Source: Patescibacteria group bacterium (GTDB taxonomy: Bacteria; Patescibacteriota; Patescibacteriia; 2-12-FULL-60-25). Taken from it: a stretch of DNA of 64,000 nucleotides. Below are positions 11,727 to 38,318 of this stretch, piece by piece. Each line of letters starts with the position of its first letter. Position 1 is the stretch's first letter. Below the pieces are notes generated by a model, which did not search any database, had not been told where the DNA came from, and was given only the letters and a program-made list of their open reading frames with translations. The position numbers were made by a program, and so were the translations under genes. Location: the NCBI GenBank assembly GCA_028688515.1, contig JAQTXZ010000001.1, positions 682,001-746,000 of the forward strand. Direction: 5' to 3'.

Positions 11727-11802
11727 CGCGGGGTAGAGCAGTTGGCAGCTCGCCAGGCCCATAACCTGGAGGCCGTGGGTTCAAGTCCCACCCCCGCAAC
11801 CA
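11727..11802 (+). tRNA. Initiator tRNA-fMet (CAT), CCA encoded
   Basis: A 76-nt cloverleaf. Acceptor CGCGGGG pairs with CCCCGCA except for the C1:A72 mismatch that marks bacterial initiator tRNA. D arm GAGC/GCTC; anticodon stem CCAGG/CCTGG with loop CCCATAA (anticodon CAT at 11760-11762); T arm GTGGG-TTCAAGT-CCCAC; discriminator A and an encoded CCA. The anticodon stem has two, not three, G-C pairs next to the loop. Its 3' end is the integration site of the downstream element. Confidence 0.93.
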
Positions 11803-11805
11803 AAT
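11780..11805 (+). repeat. attL: 26-bp core within the tRNA-fMet 3' end
   Basis: It starts in the T loop (TTCAAGTCCC), runs through the acceptor strand and CCA, and includes AAT. It is identical to 35603-35628. The tRNA gene remains complete on this side. Confidence 0.9.
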
Positions 11806-11807
11806 AC

Positions 11808-11839
11808 AAAGTGCGCTAATAGAGAGCGCATTTTGTTTT
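11808..11839 (+). terminator. Element-borne terminator for tRNA-fMet
   Basis: AAAGTGCGCT pairs with AGCGCATTTT (stem 11808-11817 / 11825-11834, loop AATAGAG), followed by GTTTTTG. It lies immediately downstream of attL, inside the element, and so replaces the displaced native terminator at 35628. Confidence 0.75.
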
Positions 11840-11881: not shown

Positions 11882-12988
11882 TTATATTTTGATACCCTCC
11901 AACAGTTGTTCGATGCTGGGAGCCTGCTGACGTAATTTCTCCATTTCTCTTTCTTCAACTCTGTCCAAAACATCAACAGCGGATTGAAGAGCGGAGGGAG
12001 CGAGGTGCGCGTAACACATAGTCGTTGTGACATTCGCGTGCCCCAACAAATTCTGAACTGCATTAAGCGGCACTCCTTCGCTGACCAAGGTTGAAGCAAA
12101 TGTGTGACGTAGAGTGTGCCACCCTATATATCGCATATCCGCTTTCTTACAAGCACGTCGCATCGCATTTTCGGCAATGTGATGAGAGAGTGCGGTTCCG
12201 TCTTCACGATGAAACACGAGCCCGTCCCTCTGCCTGCGTTCATAGATCATGCGCGCCAAATCGTTTGTCATTGGTATATAACGCGTCTTATTGCTTTTCG
12301 GCGTTCCTACGTGGCCGCGAACGATCGAGCGCCGTACGTTAATCATCTTCCGATCAAAATCCACATCCGACCAGTCGAGGCCAAATAGTTCGCCAAGACG
12401 CATGCCTGTCCGCAGAGCCATCAGCAACATTTCTTTCCACATAGGCTCATCGCAATTCTTAACCAACGCGATACTTTCAACGGGCGACAAAAAATCCAAA
12501 CGCTGCGATTCTGTCTTGAGCTTGCCGACCTTCGGCACCTTGTCCAATCTCCCCCACTCTTCAGCAACTCGAAGACATCGGAGAAGGATTGTTAAATGGT
12601 TGTTAACGCTTTTGCGCGATAGACCGGCATCAAGCTTAGAGATCTTATATTGCTCAATCATTCTCGAATCAATGGCCTTGATCTCTTTACCACCGAAAAA
12701 TGGCAGAAGATGCTTGCGCAAGATTGAGTTTTTTGTGCTTATTTCAGACGGCTTGTTCAACGCTCTGACAGAAGTTTCAAACCATTCATGAGCGAAATCC
12801 TTAAAGAGAACACACTGTTCGACCTTTGGTTTTGCGTTGATATCTTCTCCGTTTGCGAGTTTCCTGCGCAGGACTGACTCATAATCCTGCGCTGCCATCT
12901 TTGTGTTCATGGGGCTCCTTTTGCGGATGCGCTGACCTTGAAATTGGAAGTCAACCCAATAAGTCTTACGGTCCTTATAGTTTCCCAT
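11882..12988 (-). CDS. int: Tyrosine recombinase/integrase
   Basis: 368 residues from the ATG at 12986-12988; the frame is open to 13036, but MGNYKDRKTYWVDFQ is the natural integrase start. It has an N-terminal AP2-like arm-binding strand (YWVDFQFQGQRIRKRS), a SAM-like core-binding domain (VNNHLTILLRCLRVA), and a catalytic domain with ALRTGMRLGEL (Arg I), WHTLRHTFAS (His-x-x-Arg), LLGHANVTTT (His) and nucleophile Tyr in MCYAHL. It should act on the tRNA-fMet att sites, 80 bp away. It overlaps the excisionase-like gene by 14 bp, suggesting coupling. Confidence 0.93.
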   Translation of the reverse strand: MGNYKDRKTYWVDFQFQGQRIRKRSPMNTKMAAQDYESVLRRKLANGEDINAKPKVEQCVLFKDFAHEWFETSVRALNKPSEISTKNSILRKHLLPFFGGKEIKAIDSRMIEQYKISKLDAGLSRKSVNNHLTILLRCLRVAEEWGRLDKVPKVGKLKTESQRLDFLSPVESIALVKNCDEPMWKEMLLMALRTGMRLGELFGLDWSDVDFDRKMINVRRSIVRGHVGTPKSNKTRYIPMTNDLARMIYERRQRDGLVFHREDGTALSHHIAENAMRRACKKADMRYIGWHTLRHTFASTLVSEGVPLNAVQNLLGHANVTTTMCYAHLAPSALQSAVDVLDRVEEREMEKLRQQAPSIEQLLEGIKI

Positions 12989-13259
12989 AGTCTTGCGGGT
13001 TATTGCATTTAGATCGTTCAAAGTATTCCAATACATCCTGTTTTTTGAACAAAATTCGGTGGCACATCTTATATGCCGGCAACAGTTGCCTGGCCACGAG
13101 CCTATGGATCGTGATTGGCGCGAGTCTAAGTATTCCGGATACCTCTTTAAGGTTCAAGAGTTCTAAATTGGCGTCTAAAGCGACGCTGATGGTTGGTGAC
13201 ATATCTTTTTTAGGTTGTCGAGGTGCACCAGCCGATTGGGTTTGGGTATTTGTGAGCAT
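12975..13259 (-). CDS. xis: Excisionase-like helix-turn-helix protein
   Basis: 94 residues. A MerR/excisionase-type HTH spans about residues 33-85 (LLNLKEVSGILRLAPITIHRL, then KMCHRILFKKQDVLEYFER), as in recombination directionality factors. The N-terminal 30 residues are disordered; an internal Met (MSPTISVAL) is an alternative start. The 3' end overlaps int by 14 bp. A short leader ORF ends 5 bp upstream. Confidence 0.75.
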   Translation of the reverse strand: MLTNTQTQSAGAPRQPKKDMSPTISVALDANLELLNLKEVSGILRLAPITIHRLVARQLLPAYKMCHRILFKKQDVLEYFERSKCNNPQDYGKL

Positions 13260-19783: not shown

Positions 19784-21946
19784 ATGCGTAAAATATCTTT
19801 CTTCATACCATTGCTCTTGGTTACATTATTCCCAATTAAACAGGCACTTGCCATTACTCAAAATCAAATTAATGCAGAGGTGCAAATTGTTTGCCCTGAT
19901 TCTTATGGGAACTGGTTTAGTGGATCGGGTACAATTATAGATCCAAAGGGCATAATATTGACCAATAAACACGTCGTCACAGATCAATTTGGCGGAGATA
20001 TAAAAATCTGCTTTGTGGGTTTTTTAAGTTCTATAACTCAAGAGCCTAATTTTGGAACAAAAGACAATCCTAACTTCGCAGAAGTAAAATACGTGACTGA
20101 ATCCAATGATATGGACGCGGCGATTCTTTATTTAAACAACTCAACGAATAAAATATATTCATATGTTGATATATGGGGATCGAATTCAAATACACTTGCA
20201 TTCGGCGACAAATTAGAGGCTATTGGTTTTCCGACTATTGGAGGATCGACAATCACATACACTTCAGGCGACTTCAGTGGATTTGGCAGTAAAAGCGCTG
20301 GTACGCAGAATTATATCAAGACAACCGCCATCCTTGAACATGGTAATTCGGGTGGTAGCGCCTATAATTCGAGCGGTCAATTCATTGGTATCCCCACTAT
20401 GGTTGTCACTGGATCATTAAATTCAATCAGTTATGTTCTTTCGGTAAACAGTATTAAAAATTGGCTATCAGGACTTCTGGGAAGCGCGTATAAACAAGAT
20501 ATCCTCCAAGGTAAACCGACTATAGCCACACAGCCAGGCAGCATCCAAAATGACGTAACTCCGCCAAATAACAAACAATTTGCATTAAATCTATATAACG
20601 TTGATGAAAATGGCAATGTAATTCACTCTGCAACAGTAGGCGAGAGTGTACCCGTTTCCATTTATGAATTTCCAAGGGTTAAAATTGGTTGGTACGCGGA
20701 CTGCAGCGACGCGTACTGCATTAAAGACAATGAATCCAGCATTAAGGGGTATTATTATTATTTTGGCGATAATATTTCTGCGGATCCGGTAAAACATGGA
20801 GAATATATATCATCAGAGGATCTTTTGAAAGGTAAAGACTCTGAGGTGATATTGCCAAATGTATTTACGGCACTAAAAAATCAAAGTAACTATTTTATTT
20901 TAAAAGCTAAGGATGCACATGATAACATTTCAGATAGTCTATTTACATTTGAGTATATTTACGAACTCAACAGATTTAAGGATATCGAAAATATAAGCGT
21001 CAAAGATTCAAGCAATAAACTTATCGGGAATATTGGATATCCTAAAGCGTCTGAGATTCCAATGTGTGACAAGATTGATTGTAAAGGCGGTGGTCATTAT
21101 GACTATATTATTAAAGAAATATACACCAATCAAGATACGTTGTATTTAGAACCAAACTTTGGATACGGTATTGATGGTATAGCTTACAATTTAAGCTATG
21201 GCGAGGATACGGTTTGGGTGGGTAGTGTCAGAAAGGGCATAATTACCCCTGATACGTATTTAAAAGTCGATAATATTAAAAATCACAAAGTTGTAAATGT
21301 TTGTATTAAACCTGGGAAGGGAAGCGTTAATGAATTTACAGGATACTGCACATTAAGAATTCACTACAGAAGTAATTTCAATGAAAAAATAAAAATTGTT
21401 AACAGACAGAACTACTATGAGATGGATCGAATAAAATATCCTGAAATTTATTCAAATTTTAATTTAGACTACGAAAAAAGTGGTATAAATGATTGGGGCG
21501 AACTTAAGTATTCCGCAAATGATAGTTCTTTAATCTCAAAGCTGCTCGGCTATATCCTCCTCCAAGTCGAATCCCATGGCGAGGCTTGGTACGTGAATCC
21601 TTTAACCAACAGCCGTTCATACATGAAGGATGGTGACGTCGCATATCAAATGATGCGCTCATTCGGCCAAGGCATTGCGGATTCGGATTTAAGCAAAATC
21701 TCATCGGCAAGCACAACTAATGAGATTAAAAGCGCACCCAGCATCTGCGCATCAAACTCACTCGCCAATAGGATGAAGGGTAAGATTCTCCTACAGGTTC
21801 AGCAACACGGCGAGGCTTGGTATGTCTATCCAAAGAACTGTCGGATGATCTACATGAAAGATGGAGCGGCTGCTTACGAAATCATGCGATATTTGGGCCA
21901 AGGCATAGCGAACGCCGATTTGGCAAAAATAACGGCGGACGAATAA
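19784..21946 (+). CDS. Secreted trypsin-like serine protease with paired C-terminal CPR surface domains
   Basis: 720 residues from MRKISFFIPLLLVTLF (ATG 19784), which gives a signal peptide cleaved near QALA. The protease domain has a complete triad: His63 in TNKHVV, Asp111 in DMDAAIL, Ser189 in HGNSGGSAY. The middle (about 230-570) is a large domain I do not recognise, with SDAYCIKDNESS and CDKIDCKGG cysteines. The C-terminus has two copies of a domain (ILLQV..HGEAWYV.P...R.YMKDG..AY.(I/M)MR..GQGI...DL.KI) nearly identical in DNA to the one at 36862-37268 outside the element. It probably processes or presents proteins on the cell surface. Confidence 0.85.
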   Translation: MRKISFFIPLLLVTLFPIKQALAITQNQINAEVQIVCPDSYGNWFSGSGTIIDPKGIILTNKHVVTDQFGGDIKICFVGFLSSITQEPNFGTKDNPNFAEVKYVTESNDMDAAILYLNNSTNKIYSYVDIWGSNSNTLAFGDKLEAIGFPTIGGSTITYTSGDFSGFGSKSAGTQNYIKTTAILEHGNSGGSAYNSSGQFIGIPTMVVTGSLNSISYVLSVNSIKNWLSGLLGSAYKQDILQGKPTIATQPGSIQNDVTPPNNKQFALNLYNVDENGNVIHSATVGESVPVSIYEFPRVKIGWYADCSDAYCIKDNESSIKGYYYYFGDNISADPVKHGEYISSEDLLKGKDSEVILPNVFTALKNQSNYFILKAKDAHDNISDSLFTFEYIYELNRFKDIENISVKDSSNKLIGNIGYPKASEIPMCDKIDCKGGGHYDYIIKEIYTNQDTLYLEPNFGYGIDGIAYNLSYGEDTVWVGSVRKGIITPDTYLKVDNIKNHKVVNVCIKPGKGSVNEFTGYCTLRIHYRSNFNEKIKIVNRQNYYEMDRIKYPEIYSNFNLDYEKSGINDWGELKYSANDSSLISKLLGYILLQVESHGEAWYVNPLTNSRSYMKDGDVAYQMMRSFGQGIADSDLSKISSASTTNEIKSAPSICASNSLANRMKGKILLQVQQHGEAWYVYPKNCRMIYMKDGAAAYEIMRYLGQGIANADLAKITADE

Positions 21947-21966
21947 CGCTCAAGTAACCCATTTCT

Positions 21967-33870: not shown

Positions 33871-35316
33871 ATGATAAATGAAAATGTAATAGACAAAAAA
33901 GGAATTGGATACGTTATCCAAGAGGAAATCGGACGTGGTGGTTTTGGTACCGTGTACCTAGCCAAGACCAAAGAAGGTTTGCCTTATGCTATAAAATTCA
34001 TGGGGCCGATAGACAATAAAGCTGCATTATTATCTTTCGAGCGTGAAGTTGCCTTGGCGACCGCAATTCAACATCAAAATATATTGGGCTTCGTGGGACA
34101 AGGAGAACATATCTATAGAGGAGCAGCTTATTTTTTTACCGTTACAGAATATTGTCCCGATGGCAATTATAGAGGCACCTTAAATACAGGCGGGGCTCCT
34201 CTTGATTCAATGATTAACGATTTTCAGCAGATTTTGTTAGGGCTCGATGCCCTACATCAAAAGCTCGTGCATCGCGATATTAAACCCGAGAACATACTTA
34301 AAGTAAAAGGCGATTTAAAAATTGGGGATTTGGGATTGTCAAAATCAATTGATGAGGCAACACAGACCATGACTTTTAAGGGGAGTGGTACGCCTTTATA
34401 TATGGCACCAGAAGTTTGGGAAAGAGGAAAGATTACACCCGCGACCGATTTATATGCTTGTGGAGTTATGCTTTTTGAAGCTTGTACTGGAAAGGCGCCA
34501 TTCGCATCAGATGACAGTTCAGAACTTCGTAGGTTGCATTTATATCAGTCCGCTCCACGGGCAAAAAATATAAATCCAAACGTACCTGACCATATTGATG
34601 GTTTAATCCGTAGACTTTTAGAAAAAGATCAAACAAAACGTTACCAAAGTGCAAAAGATGTGATAGCCGTTCTAACGGCTGGACAAGCCACTTCTCCTAA
34701 TAACTTGTTTTCTGGACTCAAAAATCGCATACGCCAGAGTTATGATGAGCAAGAGAGTAAACGACTTGAATTTGAGAAAACAGCAAACGATGCTCAAGAG
34801 GCGCAAGAAAGAATCCGTTATATGGAGAAGCAATTGCTTTCGCAATTCGATGATGTCGTGCAGGAAATAAATGAAGGTATTCAGGAGACGAAAATTCATC
34901 GCTCCGACGATGGAAATAGTGCACGCTATTCGTTAGGTCGACGCGCACTTTGTATAGATTTTTTTCGCCCTGGTGAAATCTATAATAACAAGACCTTGCC
35001 ATCAGTTCTCAAGGAACGCGGCGTGACGCAAGGAGGGGTCATTTTAATCCAAGATGACGGGCAGAATCGACAGGGTTGGAACGTAGTGTTGACACGTTCT
35101 GAAGAATGCCAATACGGTACGTGGCTTTTGATCGAAAGTGATATTTCACCATTAACCGGTAAGGCTTTAAGTTACCCGCCAGCGGCAACTGATTCTAAAC
35201 TTCTTTCAGAAAATCTTGCGTATCATTGGATGAAAACTATGCATACATGGCTGTTGAAGGACAAACCGCTGGAACAAGCAGACATAGTACGTATCCTAAG
35301 TGCGCTTATTCCGTAG
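33871..35316 (+). CDS. Hanks-type Ser/Thr protein kinase, soluble
   Basis: 481 residues. Glycine loop GRGGFGTVY (21-29), Lys42 in YAIKF, Glu59 in the C helix, catalytic HRDIKPEN (134-141), DLG (153-155, in place of DFG), GTPLYMAPE (173-181). A coiled coil follows (about 290-330) and then a globular domain that I do not recognise (GVTQGGVILIQDDGQNRQGW, CQYGTWLLIESDISPLTG). No transmembrane helix or PASTA repeats. It is next to the type III R-M/HEPN operon and may be a defence kinase, similar in idea to Stk2 systems; that is inference. Its 3' end is duplicated just downstream. Confidence 0.88.
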   Translation: MINENVIDKKGIGYVIQEEIGRGGFGTVYLAKTKEGLPYAIKFMGPIDNKAALLSFEREVALATAIQHQNILGFVGQGEHIYRGAAYFFTVTEYCPDGNYRGTLNTGGAPLDSMINDFQQILLGLDALHQKLVHRDIKPENILKVKGDLKIGDLGLSKSIDEATQTMTFKGSGTPLYMAPEVWERGKITPATDLYACGVMLFEACTGKAPFASDDSSELRRLHLYQSAPRAKNINPNVPDHIDGLIRRLLEKDQTKRYQSAKDVIAVLTAGQATSPNNLFSGLKNRIRQSYDEQESKRLEFEKTANDAQEAQERIRYMEKQLLSQFDDVVQEINEGIQETKIHRSDDGNSARYSLGRRALCIDFFRPGEIYNNKTLPSVLKERGVTQGGVILIQDDGQNRQGWNVVLTRSEECQYGTWLLIESDISPLTGKALSYPPAATDSKLLSENLAYHWMKTMHTWLLKDKPLEQADIVRILSALIP

Positions 35317-35445
35317 TGTATTTATACACATTATTATCGAAATTCTACCCCCCCCCCAATGGAACAAGCAGACATAGTACGTATCCTAAGTGCGCTTATT
35401 CCGTAGTGTATTTATACACATTATTATCGAAATTCTACCCCCCAA
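35270..35445 (+). repeat. Tandem duplication of the kinase 3' end
   Basis: A unit starting TGGAACAAGCAGACATAGTA is present twice (35270-35359 and 35360-35445). It covers the last kinase codons, the stop and 40 bp beyond. The copies differ in a C-tract: ten C at 35348-35357, six at 35438-35443. Replication slippage is the likely cause. Confidence 0.9.
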
Positions 35446-35602: not shown

Positions 35603-35628
35603 TTCAAGTCCCACCCCCGCAACCAAAT
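35603..35628 (+). repeat. attR: 26-bp copy of tRNA-fMet 3' end
   Basis: Identical to 11780-11805: T loop, acceptor strand, CCA and AAT. No tRNA 5' half lies upstream, so this is an attachment site and not a gene. Confidence 0.9.
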
Positions 35629-35660
35629 TAAAAATCGCCTAAGTCAATGGCGATTTTTAA
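35628..35660 (+). terminator. Probable native tRNA-fMet terminator, displaced
   Basis: TTAAAAATCGCC pairs with GGCGATTTTTAA (12-bp arms), starting at the last base of attR. Before integration it would have followed the tRNA directly. Confidence 0.75.
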
Positions 35661-35804: not shown

Positions 35805-37268
35805 ATGAAAAAAATTTCATTACTACTTGCCCTTGTCCTGGTTTTGGCAACTCCTAAAATTACCGAGGCAAGACAGGGTTGCTGCTCGTATCATGGAGGT
35901 GTTTGCGGTTGTGGATGCTGCGATGGAACGTCTTTATCATCAACATGCGCGCCATACTATCCGCAATGTCCATCTAGCTATACAAATTCATACACATACA
36001 ACCCTTCATATACATATACGCCGACGCCGACAACCCCATCATGTCCCCTTTTTTCTTATTACGATTCCATCAGTAAAGAGTGTAAATGTTTTTCTGGCTA
36101 TATCGCTTCAATAGATTTCTTGGGTAACTCAGAATGCAAAGATGGCGACTCAATTTGCCACGAACAAATTGGCGTCATGTCTAGGTATAACAGTATCACT
36201 GGCAAATGCGAATGTTCTTATGGTTATACAATCCATAAAAACAAATGCACTTCAGAAGATGATAAATGCACAGACTTATATGGGTGGAATGCAAACTATA
36301 ATAGTATACATGATCAATGCGAATGCAATTCCGGGTACACCTTTGATGGAGCGAGGTGTACCTACGATACAAGCAAAAATACTTTTTATGCACCAAGTTA
36401 TAATTCAGCTCCATCAACCATAACGTGCCCCACCAACGCAACTGTAAGTTTAGATGGTAAGTGCTACTGCGATGATGGCTACGTAGTAAGCACCGATAAA
36501 AGCGCTTGTGTAGAAATCACGTGCCAAACAAATGCAGTCCTATTTGGGAACAGTTGCGTCTGTCAGGATGGTTACATTATGTCAAACAACCAATGCATTA
36601 CATATACAAATGACTGTATTAATTCGTTTGGTTTAAATGTTTATGGAACCAATGGAAACAACAACAATAGTAGCTGCTACTGTAACACTGGGTACCAATG
36701 GGATGATACAAAAACATCATGTATCTTAATACCAACAAATCAACAAACAGAAACGGCTGACAGCGAACAAGCTGCGTACATCACGGGAAATGAGGCTGCA
36801 ACGTCGCAGTTTGCATCGGGTTTATATGACCCACTCAAAAATGACTTGGCATTAACAAGAAAACTAGCAGGCTCAATTCTGCTACAAGTCCAATCCCATG
36901 GCGAGGCTTGGTACGTGAATCCTTTGACCAACAACCGTTCATACATGAAGGATGGTGACGTCGCATATCAGATAATGCGCTCGTTCGGCCAAGGCATTAC
37001 GGACGTCGATTTGAGCAAGATCTCTTCAGCGAATACAACGGATGAGATCAAAACAGCCTCAAACGTTTGCAGCTCAAACTCGCTCGCCAACAGAATGAAA
37101 GGCAAAATCCTATTACAAGTTCAACAGCACGGCGAGGCCTATTACGTTTATCCAAAAAATTGTCGAATGATCTACATGAAGGATGGAGCGACTGCGTATG
37201 GGATTATGCGTTTTTTGGGACAGGGCATCGCTGATGCGGATTTGGCAAAAATACCAGCGAACGAATAA
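35805..37268 (+). CDS. Secreted cysteine-rich (EGF-like) protein with paired CPR surface domains
   Basis: 487 residues from MKKISLLLALVLVLATPKIT (ATG 35805), a signal peptide. The mature N-terminus has a CCSYHGGVCGCGCCDGT motif, a Tyr/Thr/Pro-rich stretch, then about seven short Cys modules of EGF or follistatin type (CKCFSGY, CECSYGY, CECNSGY, CYCDDGY, CVCQDGY, CYCNTGY). The C-terminal pair of HGEAWYV/YMKDG domains is almost identical to that of the protease at 19784. It lies just outside attR. A surface adhesion or host-contact role is plausible. Confidence 0.8.
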   Translation: MKKISLLLALVLVLATPKITEARQGCCSYHGGVCGCGCCDGTSLSSTCAPYYPQCPSSYTNSYTYNPSYTYTPTPTTPSCPLFSYYDSISKECKCFSGYIASIDFLGNSECKDGDSICHEQIGVMSRYNSITGKCECSYGYTIHKNKCTSEDDKCTDLYGWNANYNSIHDQCECNSGYTFDGARCTYDTSKNTFYAPSYNSAPSTITCPTNATVSLDGKCYCDDGYVVSTDKSACVEITCQTNAVLFGNSCVCQDGYIMSNNQCITYTNDCINSFGLNVYGTNGNNNNSSCYCNTGYQWDDTKTSCILIPTNQQTETADSEQAAYITGNEAATSQFASGLYDPLKNDLALTRKLAGSILLQVQSHGEAWYVNPLTNNRSYMKDGDVAYQIMRSFGQGITDVDLSKISSANTTDEIKTASNVCSSNSLANRMKGKILLQVQQHGEAYYVYPKNCRMIYMKDGATAYGIMRFLGQGIADADLAKIPANE

Positions 37269-37282
37269 CAATCAAAAAGAAA

Positions 37283-37432
37283 ATGGCAAGAACATGCTCT
37301 GTGGTTCCATTGAAAATGCGGTGCAACGAACATCGAGAAGCTTACAAGGACCCATCCTTATGGGGTGTAGGCGACGGAGCACTATCACCGGTGCTTAAAA
37401 ACCATTTTCTGAATCAGAGAATGGAAGTTTAA
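37283..37432 (+). CDS. Possible small ORF, 49 aa
   Basis: ATG 37283 to TAA 37432, starting MARTCSVVPLKMRCNEHREA. It overlaps the end of the convergent gene at 37395 by 38 bp and has no SD or recognised motif. It may be a chance ORF. Confidence 0.25.
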   Translation: MARTCSVVPLKMRCNEHREAYKDPSLWGVGDGALSPVLKNHFLNQRMEV

Positions 37433-38318
37433 TTTGAACGGCTGCGCTTCGATGTTTCAAAATTTTTATTATTGAATGATCTGCTTTAATCTGACCGTTT
37501 GCCAGGGATTGTTTAGTTTTCAATTGCACAGTTAAAAGATCATCTTTCGCAAACGCTATCTCATTTTTTTGAACTTTTTCAATAAATTCATAATCAAGAA
37601 TATCAGCAAAGAATGAAGCTGTGCCATCGGAAAATTTCCATTTGCCTCCTTCTTGAAATGTCGGACTAATGATTTGGAGGCTTTTTTCAGAAATAGTTTC
37701 TCCCATTAGTTCTTCATCGATTATAGGTGCTTTAAAATAAGGCACTTCTTCTTTAGTGATCACTTGATGAGATCCGTCGTCAACAAAACTCATCTTATCC
37801 ACACCTGCCCTCTCCAATGGCTTCACGAAAGCTTCCACACTCTTCCTGATGTTCAAGATGCCAAAAAGCTTTATTTCTTTCATCGTAGCAATCCTAATCT
37901 CGCCGTCTTCCACTTCAATCTCAGCTTCCCCTGTATCAAGTTTTGTAATATTTTTTATCGGACGATTCTTCAACCATTTTATTAAACCTATGAGACCGCC
38001 GCCAGTCGTGCCAACAATTCCTAGAATTTGCATTAAGTTGTAGCCGTTCACAATCGCCGTCGTCGTACTACCAGAAAATAGATTTATAGCATGAGACTGG
38101 AGAGTTTGTGCAACGGAGAGACCTACCACTATCGATCCAGCTTCTACAGCTTTCATGTTTACAGCAATTTTTACATTTTCACCATTCAATATTCTATTAG
38201 CTTCTTCAAAAAGCTCACCAATAGCGAGGAGCGCTGGCGCTAATTCTTTGACATCCATCTCATGAGTAACTAAAGCCGAACCATCATAAGAAATACGGAA
38301 GGCATTTGTTTCAGGCAT
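37395..38318 (-). CDS. Hypothetical protein with central membrane-like segments, 307 aa
   Basis: Not recognised by name. The N-terminal domain (RISYDGSALVTHEMDVKELAP onward, LLAIGELFEEANRIL) is conserved-looking. The middle has two hydrophobic stretches (AGSIVVGLSVAQTL, LMQILGIVGTTGGGLIGLIKW) that could form a membrane hairpin. The C-terminal half is soluble beta-rich (KWKFSDGTASFFADILDYEF). AT-rich. It stands alone between the secreted protein and the GC-rich gene. Confidence 0.6.
   Translation of the reverse strand: MPETNAFRISYDGSALVTHEMDVKELAPALLAIGELFEEANRILNGENVKIAVNMKAVEAGSIVVGLSVAQTLQSHAINLFSGSTTTAIVNGYNLMQILGIVGTTGGGLIGLIKWLKNRPIKNITKLDTGEAEIEVEDGEIRIATMKEIKLFGILNIRKSVEAFVKPLERAGVDKMSFVDDGSHQVITKEEVPYFKAPIIDEELMGETISEKSLQIISPTFQEGGKWKFSDGTASFFADILDYEFIEKVQKNEIAFAKDDLLTVQLKTKQSLANGQIKADHSIIKILKHRSAAVQIKLPFSDSENGF

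Follow-up and report, generated by a model that had tools for sequence, protein, structure and literature searches.

A paired tail domain of secreted proteins in Patescibacteria and its two copies at one tRNA-Met hotspot

In the 64,000-nucleotide stretch of Patescibacteria DNA analyzed here (the window), two genes with unrelated N-terminal parts end in the same paired tail, i.e., two domains of ~57 residues each. Both genes lie in one tRNA-Met hotspot, and part of the first tail domain is far more alike between the two copies than the rest. The overall explanation that we favor, and hold to be probable rather than firm, is that one Patescibacteria class has the tail as a mobile paired module on its secreted proteins. 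The two domains would fold as one unit, and the module most likely tethers exported parts that are otherwise unrelated (protease, nuclease, CAP, Cys-rich) to the cell envelope. Evolution would have joined and re-joined this module to many partners. One version of it would have come onto two genes of the same hotspot, one of them cargo of the present 23.9-kb element and the other accessory DNA beside that element. The copying of the tail would be old, with ~114 bp of the first domain later overwritten between the copies by gene conversion. The data show the common tail, its sister relation, tail exchange among partners, the patch and the hotspot; envelope binding and the sequence and direction of events are inferred.

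Two tail-bearing genes in one tRNA-Met hotspot

The first gene (19784-21946, + strand) encodes a secreted trypsin-like protease with a signal peptide, a Trypsin_2 domain (PF13365, 1.8e-15), a variable middle and the paired tail (21530-21943, + strand); its start codon was picked by the signal-peptide-like N-terminus. The second gene (35805-37268, + strand) encodes a Cys-rich secreted protein with a sub-threshold EGF-like region and the paired tail at 36852-37265 (+ strand). Both tails rest on the alignment and on the pairing of the domains, and the protease copy also on an AF2 model of the pair. They align without a gap over 437 nt (21517-21953 with 36839-37275), a repeat that is real and far beyond chance, and they form the longest direct repeat between 10 and 40 kb of the window (300 nt at 79%). 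The 5′ ends of the two genes show no in-register alignment; shared 5′ ends were rejected, as the best local alignment is out of register and its score was equalled in 8 of 300 shuffles. The 1.29-Mb genome (four contigs) holds only two clear tail copies, along with a remote, partial third match on another contig (profile E 5.7e-5; domain E 0.0068). A preliminary description of this DNA was thus right in having both genes end in the tail at about these positions (the 20-mer it quoted occurs in both), in calling their N-terminal parts unrelated, and in treating the pair as special in the genome rather than as one of many equal copies.

The protease gene lies in an element of 23,863 bp between att repeats, from 11780 to 35642, in tRNA-Met(CAT) (11727-11802, + strand), the integration target. 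The left and right att repeats (11780-11819 and 35603-35642, both + strand) are alike over 40 nt at 85% and share an exact core of 26 nt (11780-11805 and 35603-35628), of which none is expected by chance. The element encodes a tyrosine integrase (11882-13036, - strand; PF00589 1.3e-33; phrog_1 3.4e-69) and an HTH (excisionase-like) gene. The interval parA - tRNA-Met - tRNA-Met - glycosyltransferase - dac is short in five congeners (G006, G004, G001, G005 and G003), where it contains neither the element nor the Cys-rich gene. The flanking att repeats, the integrase and these intervals free of the element together point to an integrative element in tRNA-Met. It is similar to tRNA-targeted integrative elements with tyrosine integrases in its tRNA-Met att repeat, integrase and HTH gene, and differs from the usual ones in having a tail-bearing secreted protein as cargo. 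The same holds for a related element in congener G002 (L156:6049-15498, 9.4 kb): it occupies the same tRNA-Met, its integrase is 65.5% alike, its att repeats lie 9,423 bp apart, and it carries a different tail-bearing secreted protein.

Several further features were seen in this region. An element gene at 13611-14669 matches the filamentous-phage replication family Phage_CRI (1.1e-6), and a perfect 84-nt tandem direct repeat (35270-35443) crosses the end of a kinase gene just inside attR. In congener G005, the same tRNA-Met interval contains a relative of the window protease that lacks a tail (L159:2698-3678). The gene beside the Cys-rich gene (37395-38318) matches phrog_3243, a phage family of unknown function (1.7e-68).

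As none of the five congeners has the Cys-rich gene in its parA-tRNA-dac interval, this gene is itself accessory DNA in the tRNA-Met hotspot, perhaps left by an earlier insertion. No second, older att core was found at 36-39 kb at up to 2 mismatches. The opposition of an element gene to a host gene drawn in the preliminary description is therefore weakened. The start of the Cys-rich gene had also been placed 230 bp outside the att core; the core itself is confirmed, and the likely ATG at 35805 lies 163 bp past the 40-nt repeat, which ends at 35642. The tail of the Cys-rich protein is about 1.2 kb outside the repeat.

It is conceivable, and in our view deserves some credence although we doubt it, that the two tails came in one after the other, on different elements of related donors, and that their likeness reflects a shared donor pool and not exchange within this genome. 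That the Cys-rich gene is accessory too, and that it adjoins a phage-type gene, would fit such a history, as would the congener in which this tRNA is occupied by a related element with another tail protein as cargo. Even so, the near-identical patch in the first domain (108/114 nt) would require that the copies later met each other or one and the same third copy, and outside tails come no closer than 0.72.

The tail family and its possible function

In sequence terms, the tail is a family for which we found no name, occurring mainly in one Patescibacteria class and joined to varied secreted proteins. It is present in 39 of 57 relatives, in 24 of the 41 genomes of the family, and in 23 of 379 genomes of the phylum (17/33 in the window's own class, 6/346 in other classes). 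Named tail-bearing relatives include Uhrbacteria, Falkowbacteria, Buchananbacteria, Komeilibacteria and Kerfeldbacteria. Two domains were found in 109 of 113 distinct tail proteins and a single one in four; two of the four, L095 and L099, run into a contig end, and L093 is genuinely single, with a chromosomal tail domain at the C-terminus. Three viral (IMG/VR) contigs, L134, L135 and L136, encode one tail domain each after a signal peptide, and in L136 this single domain precedes a trypsin-like protease domain.

Pfam and NCBIfam scans covered 101 of the 113 proteins; set aside were six proteins of at least 1000 aa (one of them single-domain), three other single-domain proteins, two of L031 and the cut copy L001. 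The tail match in L031 sits in its own open frame. Partners in the scanned proteins include TSP3_bac (16), SH3_3 (14), Trypsin_2 (8, the window's own included), SNase (8), CAP (7), Peptidase_C39_2 (4) and Peptidase_S11 (3). In the window proteins the tail is covered by no Pfam or NCBIfam model, nor is it by any of the first 25 families listed in the scans of the wider family. The open-licence literature, which cannot show that the tail is unpublished, gave no description of it among the papers listed and no match to the string GEAWYVNP.

The position of the tail in its proteins bears on what it might do. One alternative to a binding module is a signal for sorting or export of the type IX secretion kind. 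About half of the tails do end their protein (55/113 lie within 40 residues of the C-terminus), but the other half are far from it; they mostly follow the signal-peptide Met by 23-35 residues and have other domains behind them; we consider a sorting signal unlikely. A T9SS-type C-terminal sorting domain, which would always be C-terminal, was rejected on the same count, as 58/113 tails are at least 80 residues from the C-terminus. By a crude hydrophobicity rule, a signal-like N-terminus is found in 56 of 57 proteins whose tail is not C-terminal, in 28 of 44 whose tail is, and in 77 of 354 other open reading frames.

Structural models of the tail were built with AF2. The model of the pair has a mean pLDDT of 94.2 and that of one domain alone 84.6, from different alignments of chosen rows (46 and 70). 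For the pair model, Foldseek against the PDB returned no significant match (best E 0.17); the best E of the tail model in a viral fold library was 0.69. A PDB sequence search with the tail gave no match, and one with the tail profile gave two chance-like matches (E 0.17 and 1.4). With VIA, the eight best matches of the pair model all fall to EccB1/EccB5 repeats and the endolysin LysIME-EF1, at Z 5.6-4.5 with the next at 2.2; these values are below the 7-8 that the tool states as typical of the best match for models without a clear match. The alignments mostly span residue ~3-8 to 138, so that they may use parts of both domains, and the single-domain model did not repeat the EccB1/endolysin match, giving unrelated ones up to Z 3.0. 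The EccB1 repeats have about 55 residues and consist of a 4-stranded sheet and two helices; their description likens them weakly to the phage cell-wall-binding protein PlyCB and suggests that they may bind peptidoglycan (PMC4769845).

The paired tail thus resembles the EccB1 repeats (ESX-1/ESX-5 type VII secretion) and LysIME-EF1 in the VIA comparison (Z 4.5-5.6), and is unlike both in that no sequence match was found in the PDB and the fold match is absent with a single domain. It also differs from EccB1 in being a promiscuous module, whereas EccB1 is part of a secretion core. This weak fold match suggests binding to the cell envelope as a lead, not a result, and the lead is made likelier by the secretion of the tail proteins and by the kinds of partners they contain. 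Modular cell-wall anchors such as the SLH, LysM and WxL domains are short repeated modules on varied secreted proteins. The tail is like them in this respect, and unlike them in having no Pfam or NCBIfam model and a narrow taxonomic range.

Little is known about the means by which Patescibacteria, commonly regarded as living in attachment to other cells, retain and alter their surface proteins. With the tail as a marker, likely surface proteins can be picked out by sequence alone. We regard as tentative the further idea that it is an undescribed, class-enriched, two-domain surface-display module, which integrative elements and phages pass from one secreted protein to another. If that were true, elements in one tRNA hotspot would supply new surface enzymes and would recombine their own tails with those of their predecessors.

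History of the two tails

In a tree of tails from 107 of the 113 proteins, the two window tails are sisters (support 100/99), and this relation is kept when the patch is removed (99/96, 16 rows). Next to the pair stands an SH3-type protein of congener G006; over the stretch that they share, the open reading frames of G006 and of Parcubacteria group bacterium ADurb.Bin192 are identical. The nearest relative of the protease domain, L049, is alike at 138/219 positions in that domain (63%) and at 64/129 in the tail (50%), and its tail is placed in another clade than the window tails. Related proteases in other genomes of the family have third-clade tails (L106, L109 and L021) or none (L105, L108 and L118); in L021, protease, Cys-rich part and tail are found within one protein. 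Tailed and tailless proteases are interspersed in a 23-row tree, with five label changes, at least two of which are forced by starred branches. Because the histories of N-terminal domain and tail conflict, the exchange of tails between partners is real, and the tail swapping proposed in the preliminary description is supported.

The window pair is unusual. Among the 16 multi-tail genomes of the tree set, this is the only one whose tails are mutually closest (2/2); in one other, one of two tails is closest to its companion, at a rounded identity (0.66) that is equal inside and outside the genome. The element and its neighbor would be one route by which likely surface proteins gain new tails. 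A general link between tails and this integrase was rejected, as no integrase-like open reading frame lies near the tails of 133 loci (flanks of about 1.5-4 kb); mobility is therefore not put forward as a rule, since no integrase of the element's family accompanies the tails in these other loci. Tails from contigs titled Tepidanaerobacteraceae and Planctomycetota (L051 and L059) group among Patescibacteria tails, and these contigs may be mis-binned.

Over the whole tail, 335/426 nt are identical (78.6%), less than the protein identity of 82.4% (codon by codon, 142 codons); third codon positions are 57% alike and four-fold sites 28/49. The perfect runs are of 36 bp (from 21613), 34 bp (from 21570) and then 15, and the two longest are both in the first domain. 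The tails had been described as nearly identical over long stretches, which applies to these two runs and not to the tail as a whole; likewise, the nucleotide alignment bears out an ungapped repeat and not near-identity. A scan for excess synonymous identity selects 21563-21676 (+ strand; 36885-36998, + strand, in the Cys-rich copy), with 29/32 codons alike inside and 35/78 outside, a result reached by 0 of 1000 shuffles. Outside a narrower patch, the synonymous match is 44/87. DNA identity is 108/114 in the patch, 25/45 before it (21518-21562) and 202/267 after it (21677-21943). Outside the patch, synonymous codons match about as often as in comparisons with another species of the genus (30/74 and 32/69), and synonymous sites there are too near saturation to date the copying.

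Since synonymous identity is high in the patch and low outside it, the simplest reading is a short, later gene conversion over an older copy, in either direction. Gene conversion as proposed in the preliminary description is thus supported for about 114 bp only. Recent transfer of the whole tail between the element and a host gene, which that description also proposed, would account for the sister tails and for the exact runs of 34 and 36 bp, but we rejected it as highly improbable: DNA identity is lower than protein identity, the very outcome named beforehand as speaking against it, and synonymous codons outside the patch are only about as alike as against another species of the genus. Similarly improbable is that codon constraint or chance produced the patch with no conversion, for although its limits were chosen post hoc and a plainer longest-run shuffle on the tail pair gives only p = 0.045, the scan statistic allows for that choice, and the patch codons vary freely against four outgroup tails, whose synonymous identity in the patch core (codons 20-47) is not raised (5-9 of 15-17 codons).

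As direct repeats, the two tails lie 15,322 bp from each other. Deletion of most of the element by recombination between them, with a longest perfect run of 36 bp, is geometrically possible. A crossover in the tails would remove about 14.0 of the 23.9 kb (about 59%) of the element, attR included, and its product would be the protease gene joined to the tail of the Cys-rich gene.
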